64,000 nt of DNA from Opitutales bacterium (GCA_018607135.1 JABBCA010000102.1:6742-70741); one strand, 5' to 3'; shown: positions 29,676 to 64,000, counted from the stretch's first letter. The notes: generated from the sequence alone by a model not told the origin. Program-made: numbers and translations.

Positions 29676-29677
29676 GT

Positions 29678-30370: not shown

Positions 30371-30408
30371 CGTTGTCTAAGTTTTGGAGCGCCAGAAAAA
30401 AACGAACG

Positions 30409-31773: not shown

Positions 31774-31777
31774 CGGA

Positions 31778-32158: not shown

Positions 32159-32166
32159 TAATAAGG

Positions 32167-32226
32167 GGTGCTTTTTATCACTTTTGTCGAATAAATTCTA
32201 CAAAAAAGTGCTTTTTAACACTTTTT
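32167..32226 (-). promoter_or_regulatory. Paired operator-like palindromes ahead of the toxin-antitoxin-like pair
   Basis: Site 1 is GGTGCTTTTTATCACTT at 32167-32183. Site 2 is AAAAAGTG-CTTTTTAA-CACTTTTT at 32203-32226, with perfect 8-bp arms. They share the pattern AAGTG-N8-CACTT and their centres are 40 bp apart, about four helical turns. This fits cooperative binding by the HTH antitoxin encoded downstream (autoregulation). No footprint or promoter motif is certain. Confidence 0.5.
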
Positions 32227-32476: not shown

Positions 32477-32479
32477 GGC

Positions 32480-34100: not shown

Positions 34101-34111
34101 TAGGGTAGGGT

Positions 34112-35461: not shown

Positions 35462-35465
35462 GATG

Positions 35466-36416: not shown

Positions 36417-36543
36417 GCAACCACTCCTTTCATTCGGTTCCAGAAACTAGGGCAAAAAAAGACGCGCCCTTTATGTGCATTCTCCCGAAGGACAAGAGGC
36501 ACGGCGCGTGTGTTACTTTCAAACATGCCAATAGGATCAAAAT

Positions 36544-36561
36544 GTGCAAGTATTTTTGCAC
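36544..36561. promoter_or_regulatory. Small palindrome between hsdM and the Abi_2 gene
   Basis: GTGCAA-GTATTT-TTGCAC is a 6-6-6 palindrome in the only sizeable gap (about 200 bp) of the operon. It may be an operator or part of an internal promoter for the Abi_2 gene. No other gene in this gap is convincing. Confidence 0.3.
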
Positions 36562-36617
36562 GTTGTGTCATAAGCGATAATAACAATCGGGGCATGTTTA
36601 AGGCGCTTCGCATTCGA

Positions 36618-38165: not shown

Positions 38166-38169
38166 AAAA

Positions 38170-38349
38170 TTATTGATTCTTAGGTGACTTCTTTTTCGCG
38201 CTCTTTTTGGGAGCCGAATGAAGTTGGGATTCACGGATCTCCAGAAGGCGAAGTCCCTCGCGCACCACCTCACTGGCGGAGCGATAGCGTCCTTGCTCAA
38301 CCAATTGGTTGACGAATTCTTCGAGCTTATCGGTCAGTGAGACATTCAT
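38170..38349 (-). CDS. ParD/CopG-type ribbon-helix-helix antitoxin-like protein, first gene of the hsd operon
   Basis: From ATG 38349 (MNVSLTDKLEEFVNQLV) this gives 59 residues. The ribbon-helix-helix core NVSLTDKLEEFV and RYRSASEVVREGLRLLE matches ParD antitoxins. A Lys/Ser-rich tail (APKKSAKKKSPKNQ) replaces the usual toxin-binding end. No ParE toxin gene is adjacent; the next gene is hsdM, 4 nt later. It may act as a repressor of the operon. An orphan antitoxin is the alternative. Confidence 0.8.
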   Translation of the reverse strand: MNVSLTDKLEEFVNQLVEQGRYRSASEVVREGLRLLEIRESQLHSAPKKSAKKKSPKNQ

Positions 38350-45102: not shown

Positions 45103-46516
45103 TTCTGCGTGCCTCAAGTGCCTCACGGATTTCATAAGCCTTGGCTTCTGTTATGGGATAATAAAATGCTAGAAGAATAGCGCCGGCGAGCGAGATCGCA
45201 GGAATTCCGGTAAAACATACACGCATCCAAAATAGAGTATCCTCTGACTGGGGACCCTCGAGAGTCGCGTCGAAGCCTGTTCCCGAAAGCACATATCCCG
45301 CCATTAAAAGCGCAACCGCCGCTCCAATCTTAAAGGTCCAACTGTAAACCGCACTGAACATCCCCTCCCGGCGTTCCCCTGTTTTCAGCTCATCAGCATC
45401 CACTGCCTCCGGGATCATGGCATTTACAAAAACATAGGCAGCGGCACTACCGATCCCTAATAAAATAGAAGGGATAATCGATAGGTAGGGATTGTCAGGA
45501 GTATAGAACGGCCACTTTAAGAGTGTGCCAATTAAAGCGATGGAGAACGCGAAAATCATGGTGCTTCGTTTACCCCAAAAGGTAGACAGCTTTTGCAACA
45601 GTGGAACCGCCAAAACGGTTGAAATCGGTATAGTGTAGTTGACGATCGACATCAGCTTTCCTGAAGCATCGCCCTTATCTCCACCATACATGTGATAGAT
45701 CGTGACGTAATAGCCGAGGGACCCAACCATCATCAGACCCAACAAGCTAACTACGGTAATCAGCGCTAGATTTAAGAAGGGCCAACAAGACAAGGTCTCT
45801 TTAACGCTATGCCAGAGTGGTATCTTCTTGGACGATTTAACCTCTCCTTGCACCAAGCTCGGGTGCTCTTTAGCAAAGATTGCTGGAACCATGATCACCA
45901 CGAATACGAGTGCCCCTACCCACAGGCTATTCCACTTCATGCCCTCAGCCCGGTCTTCGAAACAATCCAAGCTCGTCAGCCAATAGAGACTGGAAATCGC
46001 AAAAAAGCCAATTTGCTGCAAAACAGTTCGTATCGCCATGACGCTACCACGCTCGTGATAGTCTGGAGAGATCTCCATCCCCAAAGCAATGTAAGGCACC
46101 GAATAGATCGTAAACGCGACGTAGAAGATTAGTGATGAAAGCAGTAGCCAGATAAAGTAAAAATTCTCGCTCTGCCCATTGGGAAACCACCAGACACCAA
46201 TAAAACTGACCGCACATAACAACGCACCGAGAGCAATCCATGGGCGACGGCGACCAAAACGGGAGCGAGTATTGTCAGTCACATGCCCCATAAAAGGGTC
46301 GGTAACTGCGTCCCACAGTCGGCATATTGCAATCACCCAGCCAATCAGAACCGGATCTAGACCCAAGGTATCGTTGAAGATCGGGTTATAAAACTGCATG
46401 TAGCCCTGAATCAGAAGCGCATATCCAATCATGCCCGACCCGTAGAGTAACTTCGACGAGAATCCGACACGGTCTTCGGGGCGTGTTTCGTGCGCGTGCT
46501 TCAACTTTAGACTCAT
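45086..46516 (-). CDS. GPH-family (MelB-like) sugar:cation symporter
   Basis: The 476-residue protein has about 12 membrane helices. MGHVTDNTRSRFGRRRPWI is the GPH/MelB signature between helices 2 and 3, and the DAVTDP motif precedes it. The AVYSWTFKIGAAVALL stretch belongs to the later half. Such symporters import mono- or oligosaccharides and glycosides with Na+ or H+. Its place among sulfatases and GH110-type genes suggests import of desulfated or partly sulfated galacto-oligosaccharides. Confidence 0.9.
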   Translation of the reverse strand: MSLKLKHAHETRPEDRVGFSSKLLYGSGMIGYALLIQGYMQFYNPIFNDTLGLDPVLIGWVIAICRLWDAVTDPFMGHVTDNTRSRFGRRRPWIALGALLCAVSFIGVWWFPNGQSENFYFIWLLLSSLIFYVAFTIYSVPYIALGMEISPDYHERGSVMAIRTVLQQIGFFAISSLYWLTSLDCFEDRAEGMKWNSLWVGALVFVVIMVPAIFAKEHPSLVQGEVKSSKKIPLWHSVKETLSCWPFLNLALITVVSLLGLMMVGSLGYYVTIYHMYGGDKGDASGKLMSIVNYTIPISTVLAVPLLQKLSTFWGKRSTMIFAFSIALIGTLLKWPFYTPDNPYLSIIPSILLGIGSAAAYVFVNAMIPEAVDADELKTGERREGMFSAVYSWTFKIGAAVALLMAGYVLSGTGFDATLEGPQSEDTLFWMRVCFTGIPAISLAGAILLAFYYPITEAKAYEIREALEARRNAESN

Positions 46517-46586: not shown

Positions 46587-48242
46587 TCAAGGCATCGTGC
46601 GCTTCAAGAGTTTACGATAGTCTTCTTGTTGACTCGATATCGGCACTTCCATCTCGCTGAGATACTCATGAATCTTGCCACTCAATGCTTCAACTTTTTC
46701 GGGGTAGGATGGTGCGGCATCGACCCGCTGAGGGCGGTCTTCTCTGATGTTAAACAGCAGCGTCTGCGCTGGATAGCCATCAGGTAAATTCTGATACAAT
46801 CCTGGGCTCACCTCGGTGGTAAGCATCAACAGATCGTCTCCCTTCAGGTGCCAAGCATAGAGCGGAACTTGACCTGCATCTTGCTTGTTGTTTTCGCCGT
46901 TGGCCTCATAGCAATAGGACCAGCGAGAAGACTGTATACTGGCAATCGAGAGCGAATCACGCGGACCTTCTTTTGTATGGCCAGTCAAATACGGAAGCAG
47001 GCTTTTACCATCGATACCTGCAGGGATTTCAGCGCCCGCAGTTTCGAGGACAGTTGGCATGATGTCAGCCAAACTTGCGATCTCGTCGTTAACTCCGACC
47101 ACCACCTTACCTGGCTGTGAAATGATCAAGGGAACATTCAGGCCCCCCAACCAGCCAGTGCCCTTCCCACCTCGGTTTGGTGCGTTATAGGGCGGAACAT
47201 TGTATAATGTGCAGCCATTGTCTGCGGAAAAAATAAAGAGCGTGTTATTGACCTCTCCGTGCTTACGCAAAGTGCTCATAATTTTGCCGATACCATCATC
47301 GAGAGCCAAAAGATGCCCCGCATACAAGTCAGTGAATCGATTGCCAGTATTGAATTTCTCGATGTAATGCTCGGGCGGGCGACGTATTCCACCATGCAAG
47401 GTCTTCGGTGCATAGTATAAAAAGAATGGCTGATCATCCGTAAGTGCGTCATCAATAAAATGCACTGCCTTTTCGTTGAAAAGATCTGTCAAGAATTCGC
47501 CTTTGGGACGAGGCGGATACAGCTCATGCCCCTCCCACAGAGTGCGCGAGTTGTAGTCTTGATCGTCGTAACTGTTGTAACCAAAGTAATAATCAAACCC
47601 GCGATCGAGTGGATGTTGCCCTGGTTTCGACGAAGTTTTCCACGGCGTTTCTTTGAGCGCTTCAGACAATTGCGGCCACAGCCCATTGTAGTGTTCATGA
47701 ACTGGGAGCTCTTGGCCTAAATCATTGACCCATGCATCTTCGACATACCTAAAGTCTTGTTGTGCTACGTGCCATTTTCCGACAACCCCTGTGCGGTAAC
47801 CCACTGCCTTTAAGGGCTCGGCGAGAACCACTCGATCCGCAGGTATACCAAAGTCATCCACATCTTTATTTCTATAGGCACCCCAGCTTTGCTGAAAACT
47901 ACCCGTCAGTATACCGGCTCGGCTAGGCCCGCAAAGTGCGGCGGTCGCGAAAGCACGATTAAAGATTGCAGCATTGTTCGACAGCTTTGACAGCTCGGGC
48001 ATGCACTCACTGGCCGCTTTGATGTGCGCCTGCAGGTCGATGGCACCCTGGTGCCCTTGATTTTGCCGATATTTTTCAGCAATCTCGGGCTCTATCTGCT
48101 CGGGGGTAAGGTGCTGAGCGTAGGGGGGAATCCAGCCCAAGCCGACATCATCCAATACTATAAAAATAACGTTAGGACGATCAGCACGCAATACGCATAC
48201 TGATGTGAGAACAATTAGAGCGACAAGGGGGAGAGATTTCAT
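46587..48242 (-). CDS. Exported sulfatase (formylglycine type)
   Basis: The 551-residue protein has a signal peptide (about 1-20). Metal-binding Asp pair is at 31-32 (IVLDDVG), and catalytic motif CGPSR at 104-108 has Cys104 to be converted to formylglycine. GKWHVAQ and FSADNGC are later active-site segments. S1-type sulfatase acting on sulfated sugars in the periplasm; regiospecificity cannot be told. The maturation enzyme is not in the window. Confidence 0.92.
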   Translation of the reverse strand: MKSLPLVALIVLTSVCVLRADRPNVIFIVLDDVGLGWIPPYAQHLTPEQIEPEIAEKYRQNQGHQGAIDLQAHIKAASECMPELSKLSNNAAIFNRAFATAALCGPSRAGILTGSFQQSWGAYRNKDVDDFGIPADRVVLAEPLKAVGYRTGVVGKWHVAQQDFRYVEDAWVNDLGQELPVHEHYNGLWPQLSEALKETPWKTSSKPGQHPLDRGFDYYFGYNSYDDQDYNSRTLWEGHELYPPRPKGEFLTDLFNEKAVHFIDDALTDDQPFFLYYAPKTLHGGIRRPPEHYIEKFNTGNRFTDLYAGHLLALDDGIGKIMSTLRKHGEVNNTLFIFSADNGCTLYNVPPYNAPNRGGKGTGWLGGLNVPLIISQPGKVVVGVNDEIASLADIMPTVLETAGAEIPAGIDGKSLLPYLTGHTKEGPRDSLSIASIQSSRWSYCYEANGENNKQDAGQVPLYAWHLKGDDLLMLTTEVSPGLYQNLPDGYPAQTLLFNIREDRPQRVDAAPSYPEKVEALSGKIHEYLSEMEVPISSQQEDYRKLLKRTMP

Positions 48243-49770: not shown

Positions 49771-51345
49771 CTAAGGGACCGGAAGAAAGGCGTCATATTC
49801 TGGATTTATGTCTGCGTCTCGAAAAATCGGGCGATCTTTCCACAACTCATAGGTAGCTCTGAGTTGCGTGAGGTCCTCTGGAGCCAGCCCTTTATCGCCA
49901 GAAGCGAGCAACCAATCACCCAGCGCTAGACGATGTGCCTCTAAAACGCACGTATAGCGAGGATCCGCAGCCAGATTCTCAACCTGATGCGGGTCTTTGG
50001 ACAAATCATAGAGTTCTTCCAATGGACGTTTGCCAAACCAATGCGCAGCTTGGTAATCGGTGAGCTTACCTTCGGAGTGCAAACGCTTCATTTCAGTCAC
50101 AATCGGCAAGTGATCCCGATACTGAGCTTGTAGCCTACTACGCTCAGGATGGTAATTTCTTATGTATCGAAAGCTCTCGGATCGAGCGGACCGAATAGCA
50201 TCGATCGTATAATCGCAGCGATCTCGGGCCGAAAAGACATAAGAATGTCCTTTAAACTCGTGCGACAAAAGGTTCTCACCATCCAAATAATTTGGCATCG
50301 ATGCGTGCCCAAGTGCGAGTGTCGTTGCTGAAATATCGAGCGAAGACACCAAACCATCGAAAACCTTGCCCGACTCAATCCACTCGTGTCCACCCGCGAT
50401 GATCAATGGAATGTGAACACCGCCTTCATACAAAAATTGCTTATGTCGCAGGGAGGTATTCGAACCGTGGTCGGAGAAAAAGAATATTACAGTTTGGTCT
50501 AATTCGCCATCGGCTTCGAGTTCCGCTAGAATGTCTCCGACCTGCGCATCCACACCACGAACCGCATTGTAGTGATTCGTCCACGCTTCACGATAAGTCG
50601 CAGTATCTGGAAAATACGGAGGCAGCGGCACCGCGTCAGCTTGGAGCAGCGCCGACTTTGGCGTGTATCGGTTTCCCGCCTTGCCGCCCCAAAGCATGAT
50701 CTGCCCAAACCACGGCTGTTCGTTGCTTGGGCGGGAGTCCCACACGTCTCGTGTCCAGGCACTCTCGGGCACACGATGCGTGGTGCTATGTGTAGCTTTA
50801 TTGCCCTGCCAGCCATTCATGCTTGGTTCATAGTCATGCGCGGTGCCTACTGAATAGAGTTCGTGGCGATTGTAATGAAAGTTATAATCATCTTTACCAC
50901 TATTAAAGGTAAAGTAACCCGCTTCCCGCATTAACTCGGGAATCGTTTGCATGCCCTCAGGAAGATAAATTCGAAGGTTTTCTGGCACAATCACGCCTTC
51001 GACAGTGCGACTTGAACGGTGTTGATGTGTGCCCGTGCTGGTTTGCATCACACCAGTGATGATTGCCGATCGACTGGCTGAGCATACCGAGGCGGTCGCA
51101 TACGCGCGCTCAAATAGGACACCCTGCCCTGCTAAACGGTCTAAATTGGGCGTGCTACTTTGATTTACAGGATCACCGTAGCATCCCATGAATGGTGAAA
51201 GATCCTCTACAAAAATCCAGAGGACATTTGGCCTTTCGTAAGCGCTCGTAACACAAAGCCATCCGCCAAGGAAAGCGGGAAGCAACCAGAGCCTTCTTAC
51301 CGCCTGATATCTATACAAAAACGACTTTGTTGCCTTCATATTCAA
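49771..51345 (-). CDS. Exported sulfatase (CSASR type)
   Basis: The 524-residue protein has an N-terminal signal segment (about 18-35). The metal site is WIFVEDLSP (ED, near 47-48), and catalytic motif CSASR lies at 88-92. FSDHGSNTSLRHKQFLYEGG and SARDRCDYTIDAIRS are active-site and substrate-site segments. The same landmarks occur in the sulfatase at 62464, which lacks a leader, so the two are close paralogues in different compartments. It lies 12 bp after the small secreted-protein gene on the same strand. Confidence 0.92.
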   Translation of the reverse strand: MNMKATKSFLYRYQAVRRLWLLPAFLGGWLCVTSAYERPNVLWIFVEDLSPFMGCYGDPVNQSSTPNLDRLAGQGVLFERAYATASVCSASRSAIITGVMQTSTGTHQHRSSRTVEGVIVPENLRIYLPEGMQTIPELMREAGYFTFNSGKDDYNFHYNRHELYSVGTAHDYEPSMNGWQGNKATHSTTHRVPESAWTRDVWDSRPSNEQPWFGQIMLWGGKAGNRYTPKSALLQADAVPLPPYFPDTATYREAWTNHYNAVRGVDAQVGDILAELEADGELDQTVIFFFSDHGSNTSLRHKQFLYEGGVHIPLIIAGGHEWIESGKVFDGLVSSLDISATTLALGHASMPNYLDGENLLSHEFKGHSYVFSARDRCDYTIDAIRSARSESFRYIRNYHPERSRLQAQYRDHLPIVTEMKRLHSEGKLTDYQAAHWFGKRPLEELYDLSKDPHQVENLAADPRYTCVLEAHRLALGDWLLASGDKGLAPEDLTQLRATYELWKDRPIFRDADINPEYDAFLPVP

Positions 51346-51357
51346 TGAACCAATTGA

Positions 51358-52089
51358 CTAGAAGCTCGCCAGATTCAAAAAACGAACACGTAAACGTTCA
51401 TTGCCAGCGCTGCCACCAGACACCACGGCAAAGAGCGGATCTTCATTCACTTGAGTCACCATTGAACTGTGAACCATCCGCCAACCACTTTCATTCGCTG
51501 CCGCAACCTTCAAATTAAAAGCAAAACGTTCACCATCCACTTCATACTCGGTGATTTCGGTTTTACCGGGTTTGATTCGAATCAGCGTGTCCTCAGCCCC
51601 CGTCCCCAAAACGATCTCGCTGTTACTTAAATTTAAAACTCTTAAATGTCCCGACGGTAACGACTCTTTGTCAGCAGCTAACATGACCGACTGAATGGCC
51701 TTCTCCCTAGGAATTACCAATAAAAATATGTTCGAAACTTTTGGTGGTGCTTCGTTGATGGTGGCATATGCACGCATGACTGGGCCTTCGTCAGTTTCCA
51801 CCTTTTCATAGAAGTGAAATGGCCAGGTTCCCGCAAACGAATGCTTTAAGCCCATGTTCTGATAAGAGAAAGTAATCGGCTTATAGTCTAAACCCTGCTG
51901 GTGATAAAGACGCTTTGGAGTGTCCTCGCCCATCCTCCCCAATAAGATCGTCTTAAAGTCAAAGCGAACCAGCTCCGCATCGGCACTACCCGATTGCGCC
52001 TTTGCGCTGTAACAAAATAAAGACAGATACGAACAAGTCGTCAGTAAGAGTAAGATCGTTCTCATTATCAAATTTCTATATTTCATCAC
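51358..52089 (-). CDS. Small secreted protein coupled to the Verru_Chthon protein
   Basis: The 243-residue protein has a signal peptide (about 10-32, ending SAKA) and a mature beta-rich domain with no recognised family. Its start overlaps the end of the Verru_Chthon gene by 14 nt, indicating translational coupling. It resembles in placement the small partner proteins of Verru_Chthon cassettes, but sequence does not let me assign it to one. Confidence 0.6.
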   Translation of the reverse strand: MMKYRNLIMRTILLLLTTCSYLSLFCYSAKAQSGSADAELVRFDFKTILLGRMGEDTPKRLYHQQGLDYKPITFSYQNMGLKHSFAGTWPFHFYEKVETDEGPVMRAYATINEAPPKVSNIFLLVIPREKAIQSVMLAADKESLPSGHLRVLNLSNSEIVLGTGAEDTLIRIKPGKTEITEYEVDGERFAFNLKVAAANESGWRMVHSSMVTQVNEDPLFAVVSGGSAGNERLRVRFLNLASF

Positions 52090-55000
52090 TAGTTAACCAG
52101 CGGAAGGAGACGATCTCGAAACGCCGCCCAAATTGTTCATTCACAAAGGATGCCAACTCAGATACGCGTGCATCTGGCGTGTCGATTGAATCCACGTAGT
52201 CTGGTAAACGCTGCAACACAGCTTCACAATAAACCTCTGCTTGAATGCGATCATCTAGAGCATCACGAGCATTACCGTAGGCTCGAATGATAAAGGTATC
52301 GGAGCGTGGACGCAGGCTAGGGCCGATGCGGTTCAAAAGTTTACCTTGCGTAAGATAGCCCGCAATTCCCTCTGCATAGGAGCCCAAGCCTGCTGCGCGA
52401 AAACCATAGAGCCTTTCATCCGACAAAGGTAATTCATCAATTGCCTCAATCACGTAATCCTCAAAGCCTGAATTCAAGTTGGCTTTCTCGATAGCAGCCT
52501 GCAAAGCCCCAAAGATACGCGGATCCTCTGCGAGTTCGCTCAAGTCAGGCAAACTGCTATTCAACTCTGAACCACGGTCTGTAAATACGGCCAATTCGGC
52601 GTCGCTCCGAATGGATCGATTCACAAATTCGGAAAGACTCAAAAAGGGACCTCTGCGTTTGACCTCTTGAACCATTGCCTCGGCAAGGCTTCTTATTTCG
52701 GTCTGACTCAAGATACGAATCCCTTTCCAAGCATCGGTCTGACTGGACCAATTAGCAGTCGATCCTGCTGTAGTCGGATTAAAAGCGCTTTGAGGCTCTG
52801 GTATATCTAAAAAGAGAGCACCATCTGTAACCGACACGTCTCCGGCTTGACGCCCAAAGTATTGAGAAAAGATGGCTTCCCACGCCCTCACGGAAGTCGA
52901 ATTGATATTAAAGGCACCATCCAACAACAGTGCGGACGCGGCTTTGTCAAAAGAGGTTAAATCTTGAAGCGTTTCAGCGTCCAAATCGCTGCCAGCGAGC
53001 ACCATTTTTCCATTGTCTAAAGGGAAGGTGGGCTGCTGCTGACTTGGAACTGTTGAAACAAAGAATCGATCCCATAATTGACGGTTCGTGATCCACTGAT
53101 AGTCGGGGACGAAGTCATTGTCCGTATATGAATTACTCTGTAAATGGTAGTTTGCATGAGCTTCGCCGACGACAAACGACGGCCCAAAATTATTACTGTC
53201 CCACTCGCCATTCCCATTAAGTTTAAGTTCATCCGGCTCAGCACTTCTCAGATCAAGATGTCTAAAATCGCCCACCGAGAGAATCTCTTCATCAGCATTC
53301 GGCAATCGAAACAAAACCAATCGGTCCGATCCTTCTGGCGTATCGGAGAATCCCAGAAACGAAGCTTGATCAGTGCTCCAAGTTTCAATCTTAAAATTTT
53401 CATTCGCTACCTGATATCCAAATTGACTGCCTGGCACGCTTATTTCGCTATTTTCAACAACCGTTAAAAAATAGTATTGTCTATTCACAAAGTTGTAGGC
53501 GCCTAGCGACGCATCTTTTTCGCCTGGAACAGTATTACTGCTATTGGCTCGAATATTATGCCGATGTAACAAACTTGCCGTATCACGAAGCTGCGGATAG
53601 GTCTCTGAAACTTCTGGATTTATAGTTTTGAGGCCTAGTTCATATCCAATCAGTGACACGTCTAAACCATCCTCGTGAGCCGGTTGATTCGTGCTAGGTA
53701 ACCCCCTAAAGTTCAGCGAGCTACTACTATCAAAGGAGAACACCTCAACAGGCGATGGGCCATTCTGATCATCTCCAAAAAAATGTGACGATTGCTCAGA
53801 GACCGTGTCTTTGCCAGTAAGCAGTCCGCTCGGTTGCTCATCACCGTTGTCATCGTAGAATTTCCAGCGCAAATTACGATACTCCGCGTATTGGGTGCTG
53901 CCTCGGTCACGCAAAATAAAGTTGGACCAGATGTCCAGTTCACTATTATTGTCTACGTCTTGTGGGGTGCGTAGGTCTATGAAGACAGACGGCGGGTCGA
54001 CTCCCAATGAAGCTACATCCATGATGACTTCATCCTCTGCATCCTGATAAAACCCGAAGGTGCCCCACCCTTGTCGCATCGTGACCGCCTGAGAGGCGCT
54101 TGGTGAATATTCTTGATTGGATTGCATCGTGAAGATTCTCGATTCACCAGGTGGAATGGTGATCTCATTGCCTCCGGATTCATTCGTTAACTCAAAATCG
54201 ATGTAACGTTCGCGATCCCCTCCCTGCCATTTCTCATAAAATACAGGGAATTCTCCAACTGCACCCCCAGCGATGGGGAGACCATTCCAATCACCGTCTT
54301 GATAGTAGCCTGCTGCATATAAGTAGCGCCAGTCCCCCTCGGTGCGGTTCTGCCGTCTCCATCTGACAACCAATCCTTCGTTGGCAACAATCGTTTTGTT
54401 GTAGGGATTCCAAAGAACAATAGACGGCAAATGATATATCCGTGGACGAAAACTATAATTGTCCGTTTGCACGGGATCCTGCGTGGCAGCAACTCGAATC
54501 ACGGTGTGCAACTGAAAGCGCTCTAAAATTGGGTAGACTCCGATTTGCTCCTGACTCAAATCGGTTGGCGTGATCAGATATTCATCTGCCTGATTACGAG
54601 CGCCCAGTTGAGCATATTGACGAAAAACGTCCCAACTTGGCCCACCGCCTCTTACCGTTGGATGATAAGGTCTGTAAATTTCATCATGCGGGAGATACTT
54701 ATCAATGACGTCGGTCTTAAAAGTCGCTCGATTCATTCGAAGCGCTGAGCTGAGATCCAGTTGTAAGCCTCCACGCAGTGTATCGGAGAGAACGCCTTTG
54801 TGAAAAAGTGTGGCTGACTGAGATAGGTGCGCAGACTTAGCCGTTAAATTCGCTTCGTTCAGGTTAAAAACGGTATCCATTTCATTGTAACGGATCCAAT
54901 CCTTACTGTCAGCTTGTGGTTCCAGCCCAAAGTCATCATAAGCAATTGAGCCATTCGAAAGAGGCAGCAACGGAGGACTTCCTGGTTCAAAATTTGTCGA

Positions 55001-55579
55001 TACGGAATTCAACTTAGCTTTGACGCCCTCGTCGATGACTGCGTATGCATACCCTCCTGCTTCAACGAGGACATACGGTGCTTGCAAGGGGACCAGCTCT
55101 GGGCTGTTCAATTCCTCAATCGCCGCAAAGCCAGATGCCAACTTGACAGAATTATCAGTTAAGGCGACCGACGGTTCATAATTTAGCTGACCTTCATTAC
55201 CGCTCACGAGCCAAGTCTGCAATTCGGCTTTTGCGCGCGGATCGATGCCTTCTGGAAAGCCTGCACTTATATTCTCAGGCTGCTTCCACACACCCGTCCA
55301 ATGAGGGTGAAGCATTCTCCCTGAGCTGCCTCTTTGTATGTCGAGAATTTCCGCACGTGCGCTGACTCTTTGATCCTGACCAAGCGATTCTTGAAGCTGA
55401 CCGATTGCAACCTTCATGCCAAGCAGTGCATTCGACTGTGCATTCAACAAACGAACTTGCTTGTCCGAAGTTTGAATTTCTACCTGAGTTAAGGTCGTCA
55501 ACGATAGAACCAAGATCAATACGAATGCCATCAACGAAAGCGCGATGACGAGTGCAAATCCATTACGTTTCTTATTCAT
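52076..55579 (-). CDS. Verru_Chthon cassette protein A-like prepilin-type protein
   Basis: The start at 55579 (MNKKRNGFALVIALSLM) gives 1167 residues. The prepilin-like leader KKRNGF precedes a hydrophobic helix (FALVIALSLMAFVLILVLSL). AMG-like features QLQESLGQDQRVSARAEIL and GVWKQPENISAGFP follow, matching the TIGR02600 type described from Verrucomicrobia. It is anchored by a type IV-pilin-like N-terminus with a very large exported body. Usually found with cassette proteins B-D; here only a small secreted protein follows. Its function is unknown. The position between sulfatase genes suggests a role at the surface in glycan handling. Confidence 0.85.
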   Translation of the reverse strand: MNKKRNGFALVIALSLMAFVLILVLSLTTLTQVEIQTSDKQVRLLNAQSNALLGMKVAIGQLQESLGQDQRVSARAEILDIQRGSSGRMLHPHWTGVWKQPENISAGFPEGIDPRAKAELQTWLVSGNEGQLNYEPSVALTDNSVKLASGFAAIEELNSPELVPLQAPYVLVEAGGYAYAVIDEGVKAKLNSVSTNFEPGSPPLLPLSNGSIAYDDFGLEPQADSKDWIRYNEMDTVFNLNEANLTAKSAHLSQSATLFHKGVLSDTLRGGLQLDLSSALRMNRATFKTDVIDKYLPHDEIYRPYHPTVRGGGPSWDVFRQYAQLGARNQADEYLITPTDLSQEQIGVYPILERFQLHTVIRVAATQDPVQTDNYSFRPRIYHLPSIVLWNPYNKTIVANEGLVVRWRRQNRTEGDWRYLYAAGYYQDGDWNGLPIAGGAVGEFPVFYEKWQGGDRERYIDFELTNESGGNEITIPPGESRIFTMQSNQEYSPSASQAVTMRQGWGTFGFYQDAEDEVIMDVASLGVDPPSVFIDLRTPQDVDNNSELDIWSNFILRDRGSTQYAEYRNLRWKFYDDNGDEQPSGLLTGKDTVSEQSSHFFGDDQNGPSPVEVFSFDSSSSLNFRGLPSTNQPAHEDGLDVSLIGYELGLKTINPEVSETYPQLRDTASLLHRHNIRANSSNTVPGEKDASLGAYNFVNRQYYFLTVVENSEISVPGSQFGYQVANENFKIETWSTDQASFLGFSDTPEGSDRLVLFRLPNADEEILSVGDFRHLDLRSAEPDELKLNGNGEWDSNNFGPSFVVGEAHANYHLQSNSYTDNDFVPDYQWITNRQLWDRFFVSTVPSQQQPTFPLDNGKMVLAGSDLDAETLQDLTSFDKAASALLLDGAFNINSTSVRAWEAIFSQYFGRQAGDVSVTDGALFLDIPEPQSAFNPTTAGSTANWSSQTDAWKGIRILSQTEIRSLAEAMVQEVKRRGPFLSLSEFVNRSIRSDAELAVFTDRGSELNSSLPDLSELAEDPRIFGALQAAIEKANLNSGFEDYVIEAIDELPLSDERLYGFRAAGLGSYAEGIAGYLTQGKLLNRIGPSLRPRSDTFIIRAYGNARDALDDRIQAEVYCEAVLQRLPDYVDSIDTPDARVSELASFVNEQFGRRFEIVSFRWLTSDEI

Positions 55580-55669
55580 TAGATTAGGGGTAAGGTGGTA
55601 TCTATAGGTATGGCCCCCTTGATTACACATCGAGACCTCGGTTGTTTCTTAAAAAGTAAGTTGCATGGA

Positions 55670-58600
55670 CTAGTCGATTAGAGAGCCGTCAATGACGACA
55701 TTGTCCGAGTGTTGGACAATGAAACGCTGCGCATTTCGCTCGCGGTCTGGATAATCTTTGGTCGATTCTATCGTATTATTCTCCCACACCAATCCATCCA
55801 CACAGTAGACATCGAGTAGCGTAACTTTATCAAAAACACGAAAGGTATTGTTTGCTATTTTGATATTTCGGTTGTATCGACTCAGCTCACGATCTTCTTG
55901 TATACCGGCTTTGACATCGATAACCGCCTTGCCCCAAACCCCAAAAAGGCAATTGTCAAAAACGTTATTGCGGATGACGCAATCACTAACTCCTCCCTGC
56001 TCATACCAGAAGGCGGCATCACCTTCGAATAGGATGGCTGCCCCAGGTGCATGAAAATAATTGTTTTCGACAACTGTTCGTCCACGGCAATTCAGCAACA
56101 TGCCGCGCGCACGGTTGTTGCGTATGATGTTATTTGCGATGAGGACCTCTGGATAGTCTCGGATCTCAGCAATAGCGTCACCAATTTTTAGATCCGCAGG
56201 AAGCTTTTCAGTCAATGTGACCTCGGAACATTCCTTATTGATGTGATGCACGCTCTTTACAGTGGCCTTACCGTAGGTCAAGAGACTGTTACTGCGAACA
56301 AATTCGATCTCAGTGCCTGTCTGCAAATAATCAAAGCCCATTTGCTGATTGTGCATAAAGCGAACGATGATCGAATCGTCGCCAGTCGCTTCAACAATCC
56401 TTTGATAGACGCCGTGGATATTTGTCGCGTCATCCTTTTGATTCTCGAAGAGATTATTGGTGAGCTCAATCTTGCCAGTGCAGTTCACAAAGTGAGTAGC
56501 GTCCGCTGTTGTGCTGTTCATGCGATTACCAGAGGGAGTCACCTTGCAATCATTGACCACGATATTGCGCGAGTTTTGCCCCAATATACCCATGCCACCG
56601 GCGTGATGTATCGTTACTTTATCTATGCGCACATTTTCTGTCTTTGTAAGAACAATACCAGGATGGTCTCGATGGTTCGGCCCGAAAACCATTGTATTTC
56701 CGACCGTCCCGCGAAGGTTCGGCACATTGATCCGCACCTTACGGCCTTCTAAGTGAGTCGCAGGGTAGCCACCCCCCTCTCGAAGGAAATAGTGATCTCT
56801 GACCATGAAGGCCGTCTCGCGCTTAACGGTGTCGTATTCCAGCATGTGAGCACTTCCGTAAATGCCATTCTTGGAAACGGTGCTCGTTGAAACACGATCT
56901 ACCTGATTCTCAGTAAAATAAAGCATACCTCCTCGCAGCAAAAACGGGTGCCCTTCGACGATTTCTACATCCATATATTCTTTTTCTACACCAAGAATGA
57001 TTGCTTCTGAATGAAATGGACGGGAGAAATCGATAGAGAAATTAGTCAGTAGTATGTTTTTAGAGTGCTCTGCAACAAAAGGATTCATCGCTCCGTGAAA
57101 CATGAATTGCGCCCCACCACCTTCAATCGTCACGTTTTCCATACCGACCATGTCAAAGGCAATACGCTTAAGCCCCTCGTCATTATTGCTAACAAACAAG
57201 TAGCGCTCACCCGCATAGGTTGGATAAAAATCGTAAACTCCCGGCTCGAAGACTAAGCGCGACAATTCGTGCTGCTTACAAACTTCAAGCGCTTGCTTGA
57301 TTGCCAAGGTGTCGTCCGCACCATCGTCGGGACAGGCTCCGTAGTCGGCAACCTTTACGTCGATGACTTCTTGGACTCCAGAATACTTAGCGACTCCCAT
57401 GTCACGCTCCCAATGCTTCAATTTCGTTTTAAGACTTTTCATAATAGCTGGATATTTTTCAGAGAGATCCAGGCCTTCGGCAGGGTCCTCTTTAATGTTA
57501 TATAATTCTAATTTCCCACTGCGATGTGCCATGAGTTTCCACTCACGCTCTCGCACCGAAGCATACAGGTCCTCGTATGAACGATAGCCAAAGATGGGCG
57601 CACCTCGATCCAATCGTTTTTGGTCACGTAGTGGCTCAACCAGAGAGATCCCATCCAGTTCGATGAATCCCCCCGAATCTCCACCAGCGATCTCAACCAA
57701 CGTTGGAAACAAATCTAGTGACTGCACCGCGTCTTGAACTTCACCTGCCTGCGTGACGCCAGGCCATTGAATAAACATTGGAACCCGTGCGCCTCCTTCG
57801 TAGAGCGCAGTGCCTCCCATCTTGCCCCCTCGAAAGGGTGAATTCTCAAAGTAGCCACCTTGATCTGATAGGAAAATAATGACGGTTTCATCTGTTATTC
57901 CTTTATCTTCGAGCGCGTCTCGCACACGGCCGACCGAGTCATCCACAGACTTGACCATCGCCATATAGTGCGCCTCCTTCCCCTGAAAGCCCTTTTCTTC
58001 GAAATGGGAAACATAGTCCCGACGACCGATATGCGGCGTATGCACTGAGTAATACCAAAAAGACATCATGAATGGATTGTCTTGATCGTAACCCTTTATA
58101 AATGTAACCGCTTCATCAGTAAGTTTATCGGTTAAGTAGGCCTGGTCTTCTTCGTCAAATTCGTCGGAGCTTCTAAAGTAATCTGGATAATAAGAGCTTG
58201 GGTTGCCTTGATTCGTTGTTCCAATCTGCCGATCAAAGCCTTGGTCGGTCGGGTGAAAGCCTTCAGGGCCAAGATGCCACTTACCAAGGAACAGATGGTA
58301 GTAACCCAGTTCTTTCAGTGCCTCTGCATAGGTCACGTGTTTGAGCGGAAGCCAATTTCGCGAGGGAACGTCCCCTGGATCGTTATCGTAGAGATGAAAA
58401 GCGCCGTCTTCGTTCCATGGAATATGGCGTGTCATTTGCAAGCGAGCAGGATGCTTTCCGCTGAGTAAACCGGCACGACTAGGGCTACAGGTGGGCGACG
58501 GGATGTAACACTGCACAAAATCGACACTCTCCGCAGCGAGCGCGTCGATGTGTGGCGTCTCAAAATCATTATTTCTAAAGCCCAAATCCGACCAGCCTAG

Positions 58601-58705
58601 GTCATCGACAAAAAATAGAACGATGTTTGGCGGCGTTGCGTGTATAAGACCACATAACGAGAGAAATATCACTAAGTAATGCCTAAAATGTAGGGGTAAC
58701 ATCAC
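55670..58705 (-). CDS. Exported sulfatase-GH110 fusion enzyme
   Basis: The 1011-residue protein has a signal peptide (about 5-23). The sulfatase domain (about 25-440) has FFVDDLGWSDLG (DD 34-35), catalytic CSPSR (73-77), GKWHLG and FLSDQGG. The second domain (about 447-1011) is a right-handed beta-helix with GH110 marks: VSNNDEGLKRIAF, NFSIDFSRPFHSEA, then TADATHFVNCTG and KDDATNIHG, with the Asp-Asp pair (758-759) corresponding to catalytic acids of GH110. GH110 cleaves terminal alpha-1,3-galactosides. One chain could remove a sulfate and then the exposed galactose (inference). Natural domain fusions of this kind are rare to my knowledge. Confidence 0.9.
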   Translation of the reverse strand: MMLPLHFRHYLVIFLSLCGLIHATPPNIVLFFVDDLGWSDLGFRNNDFETPHIDALAAESVDFVQCYIPSPTCSPSRAGLLSGKHPARLQMTRHIPWNEDGAFHLYDNDPGDVPSRNWLPLKHVTYAEALKELGYYHLFLGKWHLGPEGFHPTDQGFDRQIGTTNQGNPSSYYPDYFRSSDEFDEEDQAYLTDKLTDEAVTFIKGYDQDNPFMMSFWYYSVHTPHIGRRDYVSHFEEKGFQGKEAHYMAMVKSVDDSVGRVRDALEDKGITDETVIIFLSDQGGYFENSPFRGGKMGGTALYEGGARVPMFIQWPGVTQAGEVQDAVQSLDLFPTLVEIAGGDSGGFIELDGISLVEPLRDQKRLDRGAPIFGYRSYEDLYASVREREWKLMAHRSGKLELYNIKEDPAEGLDLSEKYPAIMKSLKTKLKHWERDMGVAKYSGVQEVIDVKVADYGACPDDGADDTLAIKQALEVCKQHELSRLVFEPGVYDFYPTYAGERYLFVSNNDEGLKRIAFDMVGMENVTIEGGGAQFMFHGAMNPFVAEHSKNILLTNFSIDFSRPFHSEAIILGVEKEYMDVEIVEGHPFLLRGGMLYFTENQVDRVSTSTVSKNGIYGSAHMLEYDTVKRETAFMVRDHYFLREGGGYPATHLEGRKVRINVPNLRGTVGNTMVFGPNHRDHPGIVLTKTENVRIDKVTIHHAGGMGILGQNSRNIVVNDCKVTPSGNRMNSTTADATHFVNCTGKIELTNNLFENQKDDATNIHGVYQRIVEATGDDSIIVRFMHNQQMGFDYLQTGTEIEFVRSNSLLTYGKATVKSVHHINKECSEVTLTEKLPADLKIGDAIAEIRDYPEVLIANNIIRNNRARGMLLNCRGRTVVENNYFHAPGAAILFEGDAAFWYEQGGVSDCVIRNNVFDNCLFGVWGKAVIDVKAGIQEDRELSRYNRNIKIANNTFRVFDKVTLLDVYCVDGLVWENNTIESTKDYPDRERNAQRFIVQHSDNVVIDGSLID

Positions 58706-58735
58706 GATAGATAGAATGATTAACGAACTTAAGGT

Positions 58736-60217
58736 CTAAACAGTGGGCGAGATTTCCTCATTAAGGGATCGCAGATGCGTATGCAGTTCACTATGAAAAT
58801 CATCGATGATTGCGTCCGTATGTCTGCCATCTCCTTTGAGTATCGGTTCCATCTGGTAAGGATCATTTTCTAAGTCGAACAGTATATGGTTCGACGGTTT
58901 GCGTTTTTGAGCAATGTATCGAATCTCGCGACCAGTGAGTAATTCGCCTGCTTTCGGTGTAGTTATATAAGTATAACGCTTCGACCGGAAGCCTCTCCAA
59001 GATCCATAGCCGATGTAAGCCATTTCTGGGTCGGAGTTTGCTTTTGCATTCGCAGACAAAGTCGCCGAAAAATCGATACCGTCGACCTCAGATGGCACCG
59101 CTTGCCCAGTAAGACCCATTAATGTCGGCATTAAGTCAACACTACTAAACAGTCGGTCATCCGCATACGGATCGACTCCGGGCACACGCATCATTAGGGG
59201 CACCCGAATGGATTCCTCAAAAGGCACTCCTTTGGTCATCAAGTTATGAGAGCCCAACATTTCTCCATGATCTGAACTAAAAACGATAATCGTCTTTTCG
59301 TAGAGCCCACTGCGCTTGAGGTATTGGATTAAGGTTCCAAAAGAATCATCCAAAGCGGTGCATGCGCCAAAGTATCCCTTGACTGCACCTTCGAATTGAT
59401 CACCGAAATCGGTCGTTTCGATATTAGGCCTGACTGCAAGTGGATCCATGCCGTCATACATGGCCTCGTAATCTTTGGGTGCGTAGTATCCGTAGCCGTT
59501 CTTCTCGTGGCCTTTATTACCAGGCGTGTAACGCTTTTCTGTAGAGAGCGTTTCATGATACGAACCGTTGTGCGGCGGTCCGTAAGATACGACGAGATTG
59601 AATGGCCGATCGTCCTTTTGATTCATAAACTCGATGGCCTTGTTCGTAACGTGATTCGGTTGCCAGCCTTCTCCATATCGCTTCACCTTACCGTTTTCCT
59701 CAAAATCGAGAACGAAGTGGGCATGATTATGGATTGCAGATGTCCAGTAATCGTAATCGGCTCTTAAAAACTCGGGAGTGATACCATCCCAGACTTTGTG
59801 CGCATCGCGTCCGTTTAAGTGCCATTTACCGATGTATCCGTTTCGATATCCATTCTCTTTAAAGTTTCGACTTAGGAGCTGCTCGGCACGAACGTGCTCA
59901 TCGCCGTTTTTAATCACTCCATGATTTTGCGGATAGCGCCCCGTGAACCAGCACGCACGGTTAGGACTGCATACTGGTGCGGTGGCGATTGCGTTGTCGA
60001 ACGAGATGGATTGCTTCTGGAACGCATCTAAATGTGGTGTGATTACCGGGTCTTCCCCGCGATATCCAAGCGCTTGAGCACGCCACTGGTCCGTGTGGAC
60101 AAATATCACATTATAGGGCTGGTTTCGCAATTCACTGGATGACCACGCATGACTGGGGAACACACAACTGCTGGATAGAGCTAGGGCACTTTTTTGGAGG
60201 AAATTCCTACGATTCAT
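58736..60217 (-). CDS. Tat-exported sulfatase with CSPNR motif
   Basis: The 493-residue protein has a twin-arginine leader (NRRNFLQKSALAL). Metal residue is in VHTDQWR, and catalytic motif CSPNR is at 83-87, with Asn in the more variable fourth position. GKWHLNGRD and FSSDHGEMLGSH follow. An S1-type sulfatase; Tat export implies folding before export. First gene of the minus-strand group that faces the GH110/sulfatase pair across the 60.2-60.7 kb spacer. Confidence 0.92.
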   Translation of the reverse strand: MNRRNFLQKSALALSSSCVFPSHAWSSSELRNQPYNVIFVHTDQWRAQALGYRGEDPVITPHLDAFQKQSISFDNAIATAPVCSPNRACWFTGRYPQNHGVIKNGDEHVRAEQLLSRNFKENGYRNGYIGKWHLNGRDAHKVWDGITPEFLRADYDYWTSAIHNHAHFVLDFEENGKVKRYGEGWQPNHVTNKAIEFMNQKDDRPFNLVVSYGPPHNGSYHETLSTEKRYTPGNKGHEKNGYGYYAPKDYEAMYDGMDPLAVRPNIETTDFGDQFEGAVKGYFGACTALDDSFGTLIQYLKRSGLYEKTIIVFSSDHGEMLGSHNLMTKGVPFEESIRVPLMMRVPGVDPYADDRLFSSVDLMPTLMGLTGQAVPSEVDGIDFSATLSANAKANSDPEMAYIGYGSWRGFRSKRYTYITTPKAGELLTGREIRYIAQKRKPSNHILFDLENDPYQMEPILKGDGRHTDAIIDDFHSELHTHLRSLNEEISPTV

Positions 60218-60713
60218 AGACGCTTAATCTTGCACCGATGCCTGCAACTGTCAACGAGCTCAAAAACACGAAGTGGTTAACGTTGAATCAATCGAGTTTG
60301 AATTTAGAGCACCGTGAAGATCCCCACGAGGTTTAGTGCTCATACCACTTTTACATTGGCAAAAATAGCAGCCCTCAGGTCTTAAATAATTGAACGTTAA
60401 CCAAAGTGATCACTTACGGCCATTGACTCTCAATTGTGATCGTTAAATTTGGTATAACTCGCAAACTTTCAACTCCTAATCACGCAACCATTACTTCACA
60501 TCTATTTTAACTGACACCCCACTCGCACCACTACAGCGATGACCGCGCCAAGACACCCAAATCCAACTGCGGAAAAACTGTGAAACTGTAGACCGTTTCA
60601 AAACCCCCTACTGATAACTTATAGATTAGGAACCATTTCAACTCTCGTAGCGTTTCACAATGTGAAGGTGGCGGGTTGTTTCAGCAAAGCTACGAGTCGC
60701 TAACATCAATGCC
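60218..60713. promoter_or_regulatory. Divergent regulatory spacer with paired operator-like motifs
   Basis: There is no gene in these 496 bp. GGTTAACGTTGAA (60275-60287) and TTGAACGTTAACC (60390-60402) are inverted copies of one motif, 115 bp apart. TGAAAC-N8-GTTTCA (60581-60600) is a further palindrome, about 115 bp before the GH110 start. The arrangement fits one regulator controlling both divergent transcripts, possibly by looping. The regulator family (LacI type) is a guess from motif shape. Confidence 0.45.
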
Positions 60714-62435
60714 ATGCAAGTCTTAAACAAGGGCACTCCAGTCAACTACAAGGAATCCTGCATTATTCGGATTCAACCAGTAGATGGAGACAACATAAGC
60801 AGTCTTCGTGACGCACTTCGATGCATCCCAGATGATCAATCGTGCACACTCATATTGGAACATGGGGATTACCACTTTTACAGCGACCACGCCACTGAGC
60901 TCTTTTGCTTCGTCTCTAACAACAGCGAGGGACTCAAACGAATCGCGGTTCCTCTAATCGGAATCCATGATCTAACCATCGATGGCCAAGGATCAAGGCT
61001 CATATTTCATGGCCGTGTGTGCCCATTCCTTATCCGAAACTGCACAGGTATCACTCTTAAAAATTTCAGTGTTGATTACGTTAGGCCCTTTGTTTCTCAA
61101 GGCACGATTCAAGCAGTAGACACAGAAGCTGTGACTGTGCGTATGGATACCGAGAACCCCTACTACTTCGATGGTGGTCGCATCTGGTTTAGTGGCGATT
61201 GCTACCACCAACAAGGTTGCCAAAACGGGAAACTCTTCAAGCGCGATAGTTTTTTACACTGCTTAGAATTTGATACCCACAAACGTGAGACCGCGTATGG
61301 GGTGCAGGACCATTACAAAATGCCCGCGAGCGGAGTCTCTGAGATTGAGGAAGGCCTTATACGCCTTGCAACCTCTTACCCGACTCCTCTGCCACAAATC
61401 GATAATACTCTCGTCATCTCACACGATCACCGAGATTGTTTCGGTGTCTGCATCGATGAATCGAGCGAAGTTACCATCGAAGGCGTAGATATCTATCATA
61501 CTGGAGCGATGGCTTTTATTGCTCAGCGTTCAGACACGATCAGCCTACTCTCCTGCACCGTTGCCCCCCATCCCAATAACGGCAGAATGGTCTCCAGCTT
61601 CGCAGACGCGAGTCACTTCGTTAATTGCCGAGGGCTTATCCGTATTATTGGGTGTCGCTTTGAAAACATGCTCGATGACCCAGTCAACGTCCATGGGATC
61701 TACTCCCCCGTTTGCCGTATCATCGATAAGCACACCATCGAAGTAATGAATGGTCATCATGAGCAGGCTGGAATACCAGTCGCAGACCGAGGTGCGGAAA
61801 TACGCTTTGTGGATCAGAACAGCTTGCTGCCCATAGCCCACGGTATGGTAAAGCGAGTGGAATCAATCAACCGATTCACTTGGCGAGTGGAATTTGTGAA
61901 TGCGCTGCCTTCTGTAATTCGAACTGGCGACTGCATCGAGTCTCTTCAGTGGGTTCCAGATGTAGAGATTCGCGACTGTGTGTTTGGGAAAAACCGCGCG
62001 CGCGGACCATTAATATCGACTGCGGGCAGCGTGAAAATAGAAGGTAACCATTTTCACCATGCAGGTTCTGCCATCAAAATTTCAGGAGACTGCAACGACT
62101 GGTTTGAATCCGGCGCAGTCAAAGACGTCCTCATACGCAATAACATCTTTGACAATTGCGGCTATGGAAAATGGGGCACCGGAATCATCGCAATTGATCC
62201 TGAAATACGCCCTTCCCATTTGGGACACAACGCCTACCACCAGAATATCTCTTTAATCGAAAATGAATTCCGCACCTTTCATCAAGAGCTCATCTTTGCT
62301 CGGTCCGTCGATGGACTGATCATTCAGGGGAACCGTATTGAGAAGACCCGCGACTACCCAGAGAAAGAAACCACCTTTGAGGGTTTAAAGACGGAGGCTT
62401 GCCTGCATGTTCAGTCGGACCTGCCGTCGTGCTAA
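60714..62435 (+). CDS. GH110-family alpha-galactosidase-like protein without signal peptide
   Basis: The 573-residue beta-helix protein is clearly paralogous to the second domain of the fusion at 55670: VSNNSEGLKRIAV, NFSVDYVRPFVSQG, GVQDHYKM, ASHFVNCRG and MLDDPVNVHG with Asp321-Asp322 as putative catalytic pair. No leader is visible at this start (MQVLNKGTPVNYK), so the enzyme should be cytoplasmic. An unseen upstream start with a leader is not supported. It is followed 28 bp later by a leaderless sulfatase, on the same strand. Confidence 0.85.
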   Translation: MQVLNKGTPVNYKESCIIRIQPVDGDNISSLRDALRCIPDDQSCTLILEHGDYHFYSDHATELFCFVSNNSEGLKRIAVPLIGIHDLTIDGQGSRLIFHGRVCPFLIRNCTGITLKNFSVDYVRPFVSQGTIQAVDTEAVTVRMDTENPYYFDGGRIWFSGDCYHQQGCQNGKLFKRDSFLHCLEFDTHKRETAYGVQDHYKMPASGVSEIEEGLIRLATSYPTPLPQIDNTLVISHDHRDCFGVCIDESSEVTIEGVDIYHTGAMAFIAQRSDTISLLSCTVAPHPNNGRMVSSFADASHFVNCRGLIRIIGCRFENMLDDPVNVHGIYSPVCRIIDKHTIEVMNGHHEQAGIPVADRGAEIRFVDQNSLLPIAHGMVKRVESINRFTWRVEFVNALPSVIRTGDCIESLQWVPDVEIRDCVFGKNRARGPLISTAGSVKIEGNHFHHAGSAIKISGDCNDWFESGAVKDVLIRNNIFDNCGYGKWGTGIIAIDPEIRPSHLGHNAYHQNISLIENEFRTFHQELIFARSVDGLIIQGNRIEKTRDYPEKETTFEGLKTEACLHVQSDLPSC

Positions 62436-62463
62436 AGTCAGCAAGTAGGTAGTTAGCAACCTC

Positions 62464-63825
62464 ATGAATATTCTATGGATTTACGTTGAGGACCTGAGCC
62501 CTTGGCTTCCTGCCTGGGGTGATTCAACGATTGCCACTCCGAACATTGATCGATTGGTGGCAAGGGGTTCGGCATATATCAATTGTTTTTCAAACTCTCC
62601 GGTCTGCTCACCCTCTAGAAGCGGCACGATCACGGGTTGCTATCCCACACGAATTGGCTCGCACCACCACGTATGCTCCCGCCCAGGAGAGCCGAAGCTA
62701 TCTCTACCTAAAAACATCCGCACTCTACCCGAACTATTTAGAGATGCAGGATACTTCACCTACAATCTAGGCAAAGACGATTACAACTTCGACTATGACC
62801 GCAACGAACTCTATCACGGTGATTATGAGACCCCAGGCTTCTATGGCCACCACCACAAGGGAACAGTCCCCTTCGACATCGTAAACAGAGAGTGGACCTA
62901 CTGGAGACGTCGCAAACCCGGCCAATTCTTTTTTGGGCAAATTGGTCTATGGGGCGGAAAAAACAGCCGGGCGGTGCCCAATCCAATCGATCCTGCCGGC
63001 ATGCACCTACCCGATTATTATCCCGATATACCTCAGTTTCGCGAGGAATTCGCCAGACACTATGAATGCATTCAAATCGTCGATCAAGAGGTCGGAAAAA
63101 TTATCCACGCATTGGAAACAGATAAGCTGCTCGACGAAACTTGCGTATTTTTCTTTTCAGATCACGGCATGGGTTCTTTGCGACACAAGCAATTTTGCTA
63201 CGATGGCGGAACGCACATTCCTTTGATTCTTTCGCTACCAAATGGAGAAAACGTAGGCCAGTCGAACCATCAGCTAATCAGCTCCATAGACATTGCAGCC
63301 ACAAGTCTCGCACTCGCCGGATTGTCCATACCTAAGTGGATGGACGGCAGGGATTTCTTGAGCCCGGAGTATCCACGCGAGTATGTCGTCTCAGCCCGCG
63401 ACCGCTGCGACTACACCATCGATCATATTCGCTCAATTAGAACACCCAATTTTCGCTATATTCGAAACTTTCTCACCGATCGACCACTCATGCAGCCCCA
63501 GTATCGCGATCAAACAGAGACTTACCTAGCCTACCGAAAGATGTTTCAAGATGGCGAATTAACTGCAATACAAGCAGCATTTGCAGGTGACGAACGACCC
63601 GCCGAGGAACTCTATGACCATCAAAATGATTCGGACGAATCACACAATCTAGTAAACGACCCAGCCTACGCAACGATCCTCGATACAATGCGTAGTCACT
63701 TAGAAAAGTGGATCGAAGAGACTGGTGATTTAGGCGCGATTCCAGAAAGTTCAGAACAATTAACTGCACTGATTGATCGATGGGGCAAAGAGAGGTGCGT
63801 TAACCCAGAGTATCAAACTGTTTAG
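62464..63825 (+). CDS. Sulfatase without signal peptide (CSPSR type)
   Basis: The 453-residue protein begins directly with the catalytic fold (MNILWIYVEDLSPW; metal-binding ED 9-10). Catalytic CSPSR is at 48-52. FSDHGMGSLRHKQFCYDGG and SARDRCDYTIDHIRSI match the exported paralogue at 49771 block for block. Lack of any leader implies cytoplasmic location, unusual for this group. Its Cys would need cytoplasmic formylglycine formation. Cotranscribed with the leaderless GH110 gene. Confidence 0.92.
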   Translation: MNILWIYVEDLSPWLPAWGDSTIATPNIDRLVARGSAYINCFSNSPVCSPSRSGTITGCYPTRIGSHHHVCSRPGEPKLSLPKNIRTLPELFRDAGYFTYNLGKDDYNFDYDRNELYHGDYETPGFYGHHHKGTVPFDIVNREWTYWRRRKPGQFFFGQIGLWGGKNSRAVPNPIDPAGMHLPDYYPDIPQFREEFARHYECIQIVDQEVGKIIHALETDKLLDETCVFFFSDHGMGSLRHKQFCYDGGTHIPLILSLPNGENVGQSNHQLISSIDIAATSLALAGLSIPKWMDGRDFLSPEYPREYVVSARDRCDYTIDHIRSIRTPNFRYIRNFLTDRPLMQPQYRDQTETYLAYRKMFQDGELTAIQAAFAGDERPAEELYDHQNDSDESHNLVNDPAYATILDTMRSHLEKWIEETGDLGAIPESSEQLTALIDRWGKERCVNPEYQTV

Positions 63826-63845: not shown

Positions 63846-64000
63846 CTAATTTCCTTCGAATTCGACTAAGTTCTCGGTCTCAATGGTGACCAGTTTGTGC
63901 GACTTTTTAGGCTTTCGAGTGGTGCTTGCGTGAAGCCAATGACCAGTTAACACAGAACGAGTTGGTTTCTCAGGAACACCGAACGATCGCCGATGCAGCA
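63846..64000 (-). CDS. 3' end of a minus-strand gene, truncated by the window edge
   Basis: An open frame runs from the edge to a TAG stop at 63846-63848, giving at least 50 codons. The segment RSFGVPEKPTRSVLTGHWLH and the closing HKLVTIETENLVEFEGN look like real protein. The basic, short C-terminus could belong to a GntR/LacI-type sugar-responsive regulator, but this is only a suggestion from size and locus. It converges with the sulfatase gene. Confidence 0.5.
   Translation of the reverse strand, partial: LHRRSFGVPEKPTRSVLTGHWLHASTTRKPKKSHKLVTIETENLVEFEGN

Follow-up and report, generated by a model that had tools for sequence, protein, structure and literature searches.

The window, by which we mean the whole stretch of 64,000 nucleotides analysed here (C62:6742-70741), belongs to a marine member of the Verrucomicrobiota whose genome (3.53 Mb in 106 contigs) is 99.98% complete. 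A single locus within it holds both a set of exported desulfating and degalactosylating enzymes and a leaderless pair of the same enzyme types (Table 1). The exported enzymes and a candidate symporter lie on the minus strand (43477, 45086, 46587, 49771, 55670, and 58736, named by their first coordinate), while the leaderless pair forms a two-gene unit on the plus strand, in which 60714 and 62464 are separated by 28 nt and are followed by a convergent LacI-type regulator that crosses the window end. One 17-kb part of the window contains five sulfatase domains, with matches to carrageenan sulfatases.

Table 1. Features of the locus; coordinates are counted from the first nucleotide of the window.
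Coordinates	Strand	Feature	Evidence
43477..45135	-	Exported beta-helix protein with remote similarity to GH110	53% orthologue in a GPH/leaderless-GH110 operon of G274
45086..46516	-	GPH-type cation symporter, candidate importer	Pfam and TIGR profiles; neighbourhoods of relatives
46587..48242	-	Exported sulfatase, S1_19-like	Pfam; orthologues in GPH/leaderless-GH110 operons
49771..51345	-	Exported S1_8 sulfatase, FGly motif CSASR	PDB 9bbd, E 1e-113; leader score 1.91
55670..58705	-	Exported fusion: S1_16/S1_19-like sulfatase (residues ~24-440) and GH110B-type GH110 (~446-1006)	Pfam; PDB; leader score 2.72; GH110B clade
58736..60217	-	Exported sulfatase with Tat-like leader MNRRNFLQKSALA	Pfam; leader score
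60581..60600	+	Inverted repeat TGAAAC-N8-GTTTCA upstream of 60714, possible operator	
60714..62435	+	Leaderless GH110 of exo-alpha-1,3-galactosidase type, 573 aa	ORF; PDB 7jw4, E 5e-99; tree; catalytic residues intact
62464..63825	+	Leaderless S1_8 sulfatase, 453 aa, FGly motif CSPSR	ORF; PDB 9bbd (S1_8B), E 6e-120; tree
63846..64000	-	LacI-type regulator, 3' part; whole gene (C62:70587-71681) extends beyond the window	

Several other features of the window were recorded. The Tat-like leader of 58736 stands amid the apparently Sec-type sulfatases around it. The sulfatase cluster also encloses a protein resembling Verru_Chthon cassette protein A (52076-55630), a homologue of which (L125:10829-14491, 31% over 481 aa) flanks a leaderless GH110/S1_8 locus in G274, a genome from the same order and a different family, as well as a PEP-CTERM-like exported protein (48485-49663) whose N-terminus is similar to that of L122:10016-11158, from a GPH/GH110 locus in G019, a genome of the same family. 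At 26478-38300, the type I restriction-modification genes HsdR, HsdS, and HsdM are interleaved with Abi_2, a reverse transcriptase, and an HTH/M78 protein, and this region is likely a defence island.

Export leaders were scored with a simple hydrophobicity heuristic of our own, on which cytosolic controls range from -0.4 to 1.0 and the exported proteins of the window from 1.8 to 3.4; four relatives that it missed (L041, L047, L061, and L163) were relabelled as leader-bearing after their sequences were read. The initial annotation had described an exported sulfatase and GH110 domain, in 49771 and 55670, together with leaderless counterparts, and this description was borne out. Both exported proteins carry leaders, that of 49771 starting from a TTG codon, and both 60714 and 62464 begin at their catalytic domains, with scores (1.09 and 0.07 for the two) at or close to the range of the cytosolic controls. 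The first residues of the sulfatase domain, MNILWIYVEDLSP, are also the first of the 62464 protein; the corresponding residues of mature 49771 are PNVLWIFVEDLSP. Six codons before the start of 62464 there is an in-frame stop, and the other frames are closed nearby. The N-terminus of 60714 is polar and is preceded by an in-frame stop about 16 codons upstream; there is neither an earlier ATG, GTG, or TTG nor a hydrophobic stretch. The initial annotation named upstream leaders among the observations that would count against it; a hidden or frameshifted leader is excluded for both genes, as none occurs in any frame.

The sulfatases 62464 and 49771 are both PF00884 members and are mutual best matches within their own genome, with 45-46% identity. 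Their best PDB matches are S1_8B, S1_8A, and S1_8C, their FGly motifs fit the pattern C-x-[PA]-S-R, and the equivalents of C92 and R96 are aligned, which identifies them as S1 subfamily 8-like enzymes; by analogy with S1_8B, they may be 2-O-sulfohydrolases. The match of 62464 to the oligosaccharide-active S1_8B (9bbd, 405 bits) exceeds that to the monosaccharide-active S1_8A (271 bits), and Tyr389 of the oligosaccharide loop is retained, although Lys393 is not. In a tree of the S1_8 group, 62464 groups solely with a leaderless gene of G274, which is 65% identical to it, aligns without gaps over 453 residues, and also starts at the sulfatase domain. Within the phylum, only 2 of the 68 scorable members of this group are leaderless and 66 carry leaders, two further rows cut by contig ends standing outside the 68; leaderless S1_8 relatives also occur in Mesobacillus (Bacillota) and on a haloarchaeal plasmid of Halomontanus. 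The view that a cytoplasmic sulfatase of this class is unusual is thus right as far as S1_8 members of this phylum are concerned. It does not extend to sulfatases in general: besides these leaderless relatives, one study lists 141 of 521 and 106 of 480 sulfatases of the Kiritimatiellales strains F1 and F21 as predicted soluble cytoplasmic proteins (PMC6388578).

By Pfam, 60714 is a GH110 protein and 55670 is a sulfatase joined to a GH110 domain. The two GH110 units are 37% identical and are each other's best match within the genome, and the best PDB match of both is GH110B 7jw4 (E 2e-167 for the fusion). The beta-helix and GLAA-B barrel domains of the family (PF23764/PF23763/PF13229) are present, and 60714 retains Asp321, Asp344, and Asp345 along with nearly all residues of the GH110B minus-1 subsite. 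The one that differs, position 480 (GH110B numbering), is Glu in GH110B, Arg in the 6-sulfate-binding GH110A, and Ser in 60714. In a quick IQ-TREE phylogeny of 73 rows, 60714 falls inside a clade of 16, every one of which is leaderless (SH-aLRT 94), and the GH110 half of the fusion falls in a 17-row GH110B clade of the P. distincta type, in which 16 members have leaders (SH-aLRT 100). With its separate clade and a Ser in place of Glu480, 60714 is not of the GH110B subtype, and the fusion's GH110, with clade membership and Glu480, is. Ser480 occurs in 15/16 of the leaderless clade versus 1/38 exported rows; it may alter the C6 pocket, which by itself is no proof of a sulfated substrate. The leader label changes 5 times on the tree, compared with 23 times in shuffles (0/500).

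Eight leaderless GH110 proteins from other Verrucomicrobiota (L190-L192, L198, L199, and L203-L205) form a second group that lies deeper in the tree, and neither a sulfatase nor a symporter was detected near these eight. A first contig scan with 60714 as the sole query gave no match. The in-frame fusion of an S1_16-like sulfatase with a GH110B-type domain at 55670-58705 is the only one recognised among the 73 GH110 proteins, other long N-terminal extensions among which were not all identified.

The initial annotation regarded the exported and leaderless enzymes as duplicates of each other, and here we differ. For both pairs a recent duplication is ruled out by the trees, in which the GH110s occupy separate clades, and by the identities (45% for the sulfatases and 37% for the GH110s). 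Because the two pairs represent old, separate lineages, and because the exported GH110 is fused to a sulfatase of a different subfamily, its nearest match being a kappa-carrageenan S1_16 enzyme, 'duplicated' is the wrong word.

The genome encodes one clear formylglycine-generating enzyme (FGE), which matches 6s07 (E 7e-117), has the active-site motif CHESYC, and is leaderless. No sulfatase-type radical SAM maturase (anSME) was found above cut-off in the genome; the sole match is MoaA-like and below cut-off, and maturation by this route was rejected. As the single clear FGE is leaderless, maturation is expected in the cytoplasm, and a cytoplasmic S1 sulfatase could therefore be active there. 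The leaderless maturase and the leaderless state conserved in relatives both fit a cytoplasmic FGly sulfatase.

As had been proposed, 45086 is a GPH-type symporter gene; its product matches MFS_2 with 267 bits, above the cut-off, and TIGR00792 with 200 bits, below the cut-off of 231. Close relatives of 45086 adjoin a leaderless GH110 in both other genomes in which they were found, G019 (90% identity) and G274 (77%). The same operons hold an orthologue of 46587 (70% and 64%, respectively), and that of G274 also holds one of 43477 (53%). The LacI of this G274 operon and the LacI-type regulator next to 62464 share 52% identity. In the window, the operon of 45086 has no GH110, and some 15 kb separate it from the leaderless pair, which forms another operon; the window therefore holds parts of two separate G274 loci. 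These neighbourhoods of its relatives are what suggest a role for 45086 in the pathway proposed below. The inverted repeat at 60581 is unique in the window as an exact match, and inexact matches are no more frequent there than chance predicts; the idea of a LacI operator common to this site and the operons of 45086 or 49771 was therefore rejected.

Further observations come from 19-kb stretches around sampled GH110 genes. Leaderless neighbouring sulfatases occur in 8/10 loci with a leaderless GH110 and in 0/10 with an exported one (Fisher p 0.0007, or 0.007 after near relatives were collapsed), and these sulfatases belong to several lineages that are mostly less than 35% identical to each other. 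In two loci, L120 and L122, an exported sulfatase is paired with a leaderless GH110. GPH or SSF transporters are present in 8/15 loci of the leaderless clade versus 2/22 exported loci (p 0.006). In G274, the 65% identical S1_8 relative lies beside a leaderless GH110, with a GPH-type transporter between them. As the GH110 genes switched state only a few times, a test corrected for the tree has just 1-3 independent pairs among these related loci and hence no power, so that the matching of leader state between GH110s and neighbouring sulfatases is suggestive and not an independent proof.

Taken together, these features make it fairly probable, in our judgement, that 60714 and 62464 act in the cytoplasm, within a sulfated-galactoside pathway that has steps on either side of the inner membrane. 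The exported sulfatases and the 55670 fusion would trim the substrate outside the cell or in the periplasm, and a small alpha-galactoside, still sulfated, would be imported, most likely by the candidate symporter 45086. Once in the cytoplasm, this compound would lose a sulfate (probably 2-O) of its terminal alpha-galactose to 62464, which the leaderless FGE would have matured, and galactose would then be released by 60714, an inverting GH110. Such a division, with part of the substrate trimmed outside and part imported sulfated, is the interpretation that the initial annotation had offered. The split between compartments is supported, since relatives are leaderless as well and both a GPH symporter and a cytoplasmic maturase go with this state; the notion of duplication is not. 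More tentatively, and with rather less conviction, we suggest that this may be a widespread, undescribed route in the Verrucomicrobiota, by which GPH/SSF symporters would carry sulfated alpha-galactosides through the inner membrane with the sulfate attached, and a dedicated cytoplasmic branch of S1 and GH110 enzymes would desulfate and cleave them beside an exported branch for the same bond.

An unlikely alternative, though one to be taken seriously, is that the leaderless enzymes are cytoplasmic but that the residue cut by GH110 arrives only partly sulfated or not at all, 60714 acting mainly on unsulfated alpha-galactosides and 62464 on a released monosaccharide or another small ester. Some S1_8 and S1_15 enzymes of P. 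distincta do act on galactose monosulfates (PMC12549532), the leaderless GH110 of L117 has no sulfatase and adjoins a leaderless GH28 and symporters, and the Ser that prevails in the clade at position 480, which decides the 6-sulfate pocket, is the residue of neither GH110A nor GH110B. The closeness of 62464 to the oligosaccharide-active S1_8B and its retained Tyr389, even with Lys393 missing, argue against a monosaccharide substrate.

The identity of the glycan is a separate matter. With L206:17008-19707, taken as a GH150 by synteny with the U2A locus, as a single query with no positive control, no GH150B-type carrageenase was found in the genome, and no GH2 (PF02836) was found in it with positive controls. 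The GH150 endo-carrageenase and GH2 beta-galactosidase that define a lambda-carrageenan locus are thus not seen here, so carrageenan itself is doubtful as the substrate and its full breakdown by this genome is unsupported. Just as likely as full carrageenan breakdown is the use of a scavenged oligosaccharide or of a different sulfated glycan capped with alpha-1,3-galactose. The absence of these homologues from so complete a genome would also suit a glycan of host or bacterial rather than algal origin, such as a sulfated exopolymer capped with alpha-galactose, and other members of GH110 have blood-group B or alpha-Gal as their substrate (PMC7939477); given five sulfatase domains in 17 kb that match carrageenan sulfatases, we consider this improbable.

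It is equally improbable that non-classical export or cell lysis brings 60714 and 62464 to the outside, all desulfation then taking place there, since leaderlessness is conserved across two families and throughout a clade of 16, in contrast to the clear leaders of relatives, and the FGE and symporters supply what the cytoplasm would need. That leader loss left the pair inactive or decaying is very improbable indeed, for although no close orthologue of the pair occurs in the same genus, the genes have no stops, the FGly motif and the GH110 catalytic and minus-1 residues are kept except at position 480, and 62464 aligns gaplessly with its relative in another family.

If a conserved cytoplasmic sulfatase-glycosidase pair exists as we propose for 60714 and 62464, there are marine bacteria that take up the sugar in its sulfated form; this would hide the product from competitors, free sulfate inside the cell, and require symporters for sulfated sugars. 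The gene set provides a concrete means to test the site of desulfation in Verrucomicrobiota. Cytoplasmic sulfatases as such are already predicted for the phylum in the study of strains F1 and F21 (PMC6388578), which gives a genome count; in the passages covered here, we found no leaderless sulfatase matched with a leaderless glycosidase and a symporter. In the literature covered, which is incomplete and does not prove absence, we found no description of such a matched GH110-sulfatase-symporter set or of the leaderless GH110 clade.

A partial parallel is a plasmid of Mesobacillus foraminis (L213:2324-5644), on which a leaderless S1_8-type sulfatase (36%) has a GPH symporter directly upstream and an FGE-family gene nearby, but this organism is Gram-positive and has a ROK-family gene instead of a GH110. 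The closest characterised system is the lambda-carrageenan cascade of Pseudoalteromonas distincta U2A (S1_8B, S1_15B, GH110A/B, GH2, and GH150; PMC12549532), in which S1_8B takes the 2-sulfate off the terminal alpha-galactose and GH110A or GH110B then releases galactose, steps that its authors place in the periplasm. The window would share this succession of S1_8 and GH110, and both of its pairs best match the S1_8B and GH110B of that cascade; a related P. carrageenovora locus has an MFS transporter and a LacI regulator, as here. PdGH110B (PDB 7jw4/9beu; PMC7939477) is a direct relative of the fusion's GH110. Its fold, its three catalytic Asp residues, and the greater part of its minus-1 subsite recur in 60714, which differs in its Ser480 and its separate leaderless clade. 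Whereas the oligosaccharide steps of U2A are placed in the periplasm, the second pair of the window is leaderless, and no GH150B-type or GH2 homologue was found in this genome. The kappa/iota-carrageenan pathway of Zobellia galactanivorans (PMC5698469) likewise applies sulfatases and exo-galactosidases to sulfated galactans, but its GH127 and GH129-like steps are predicted outside the cytoplasm, with the monosaccharide being taken up. Both of these cascades (PMC12549532, PMC5698469) put desulfation outside the cytoplasm, before uptake, whereas the locus described here would carry part of it to the inside.
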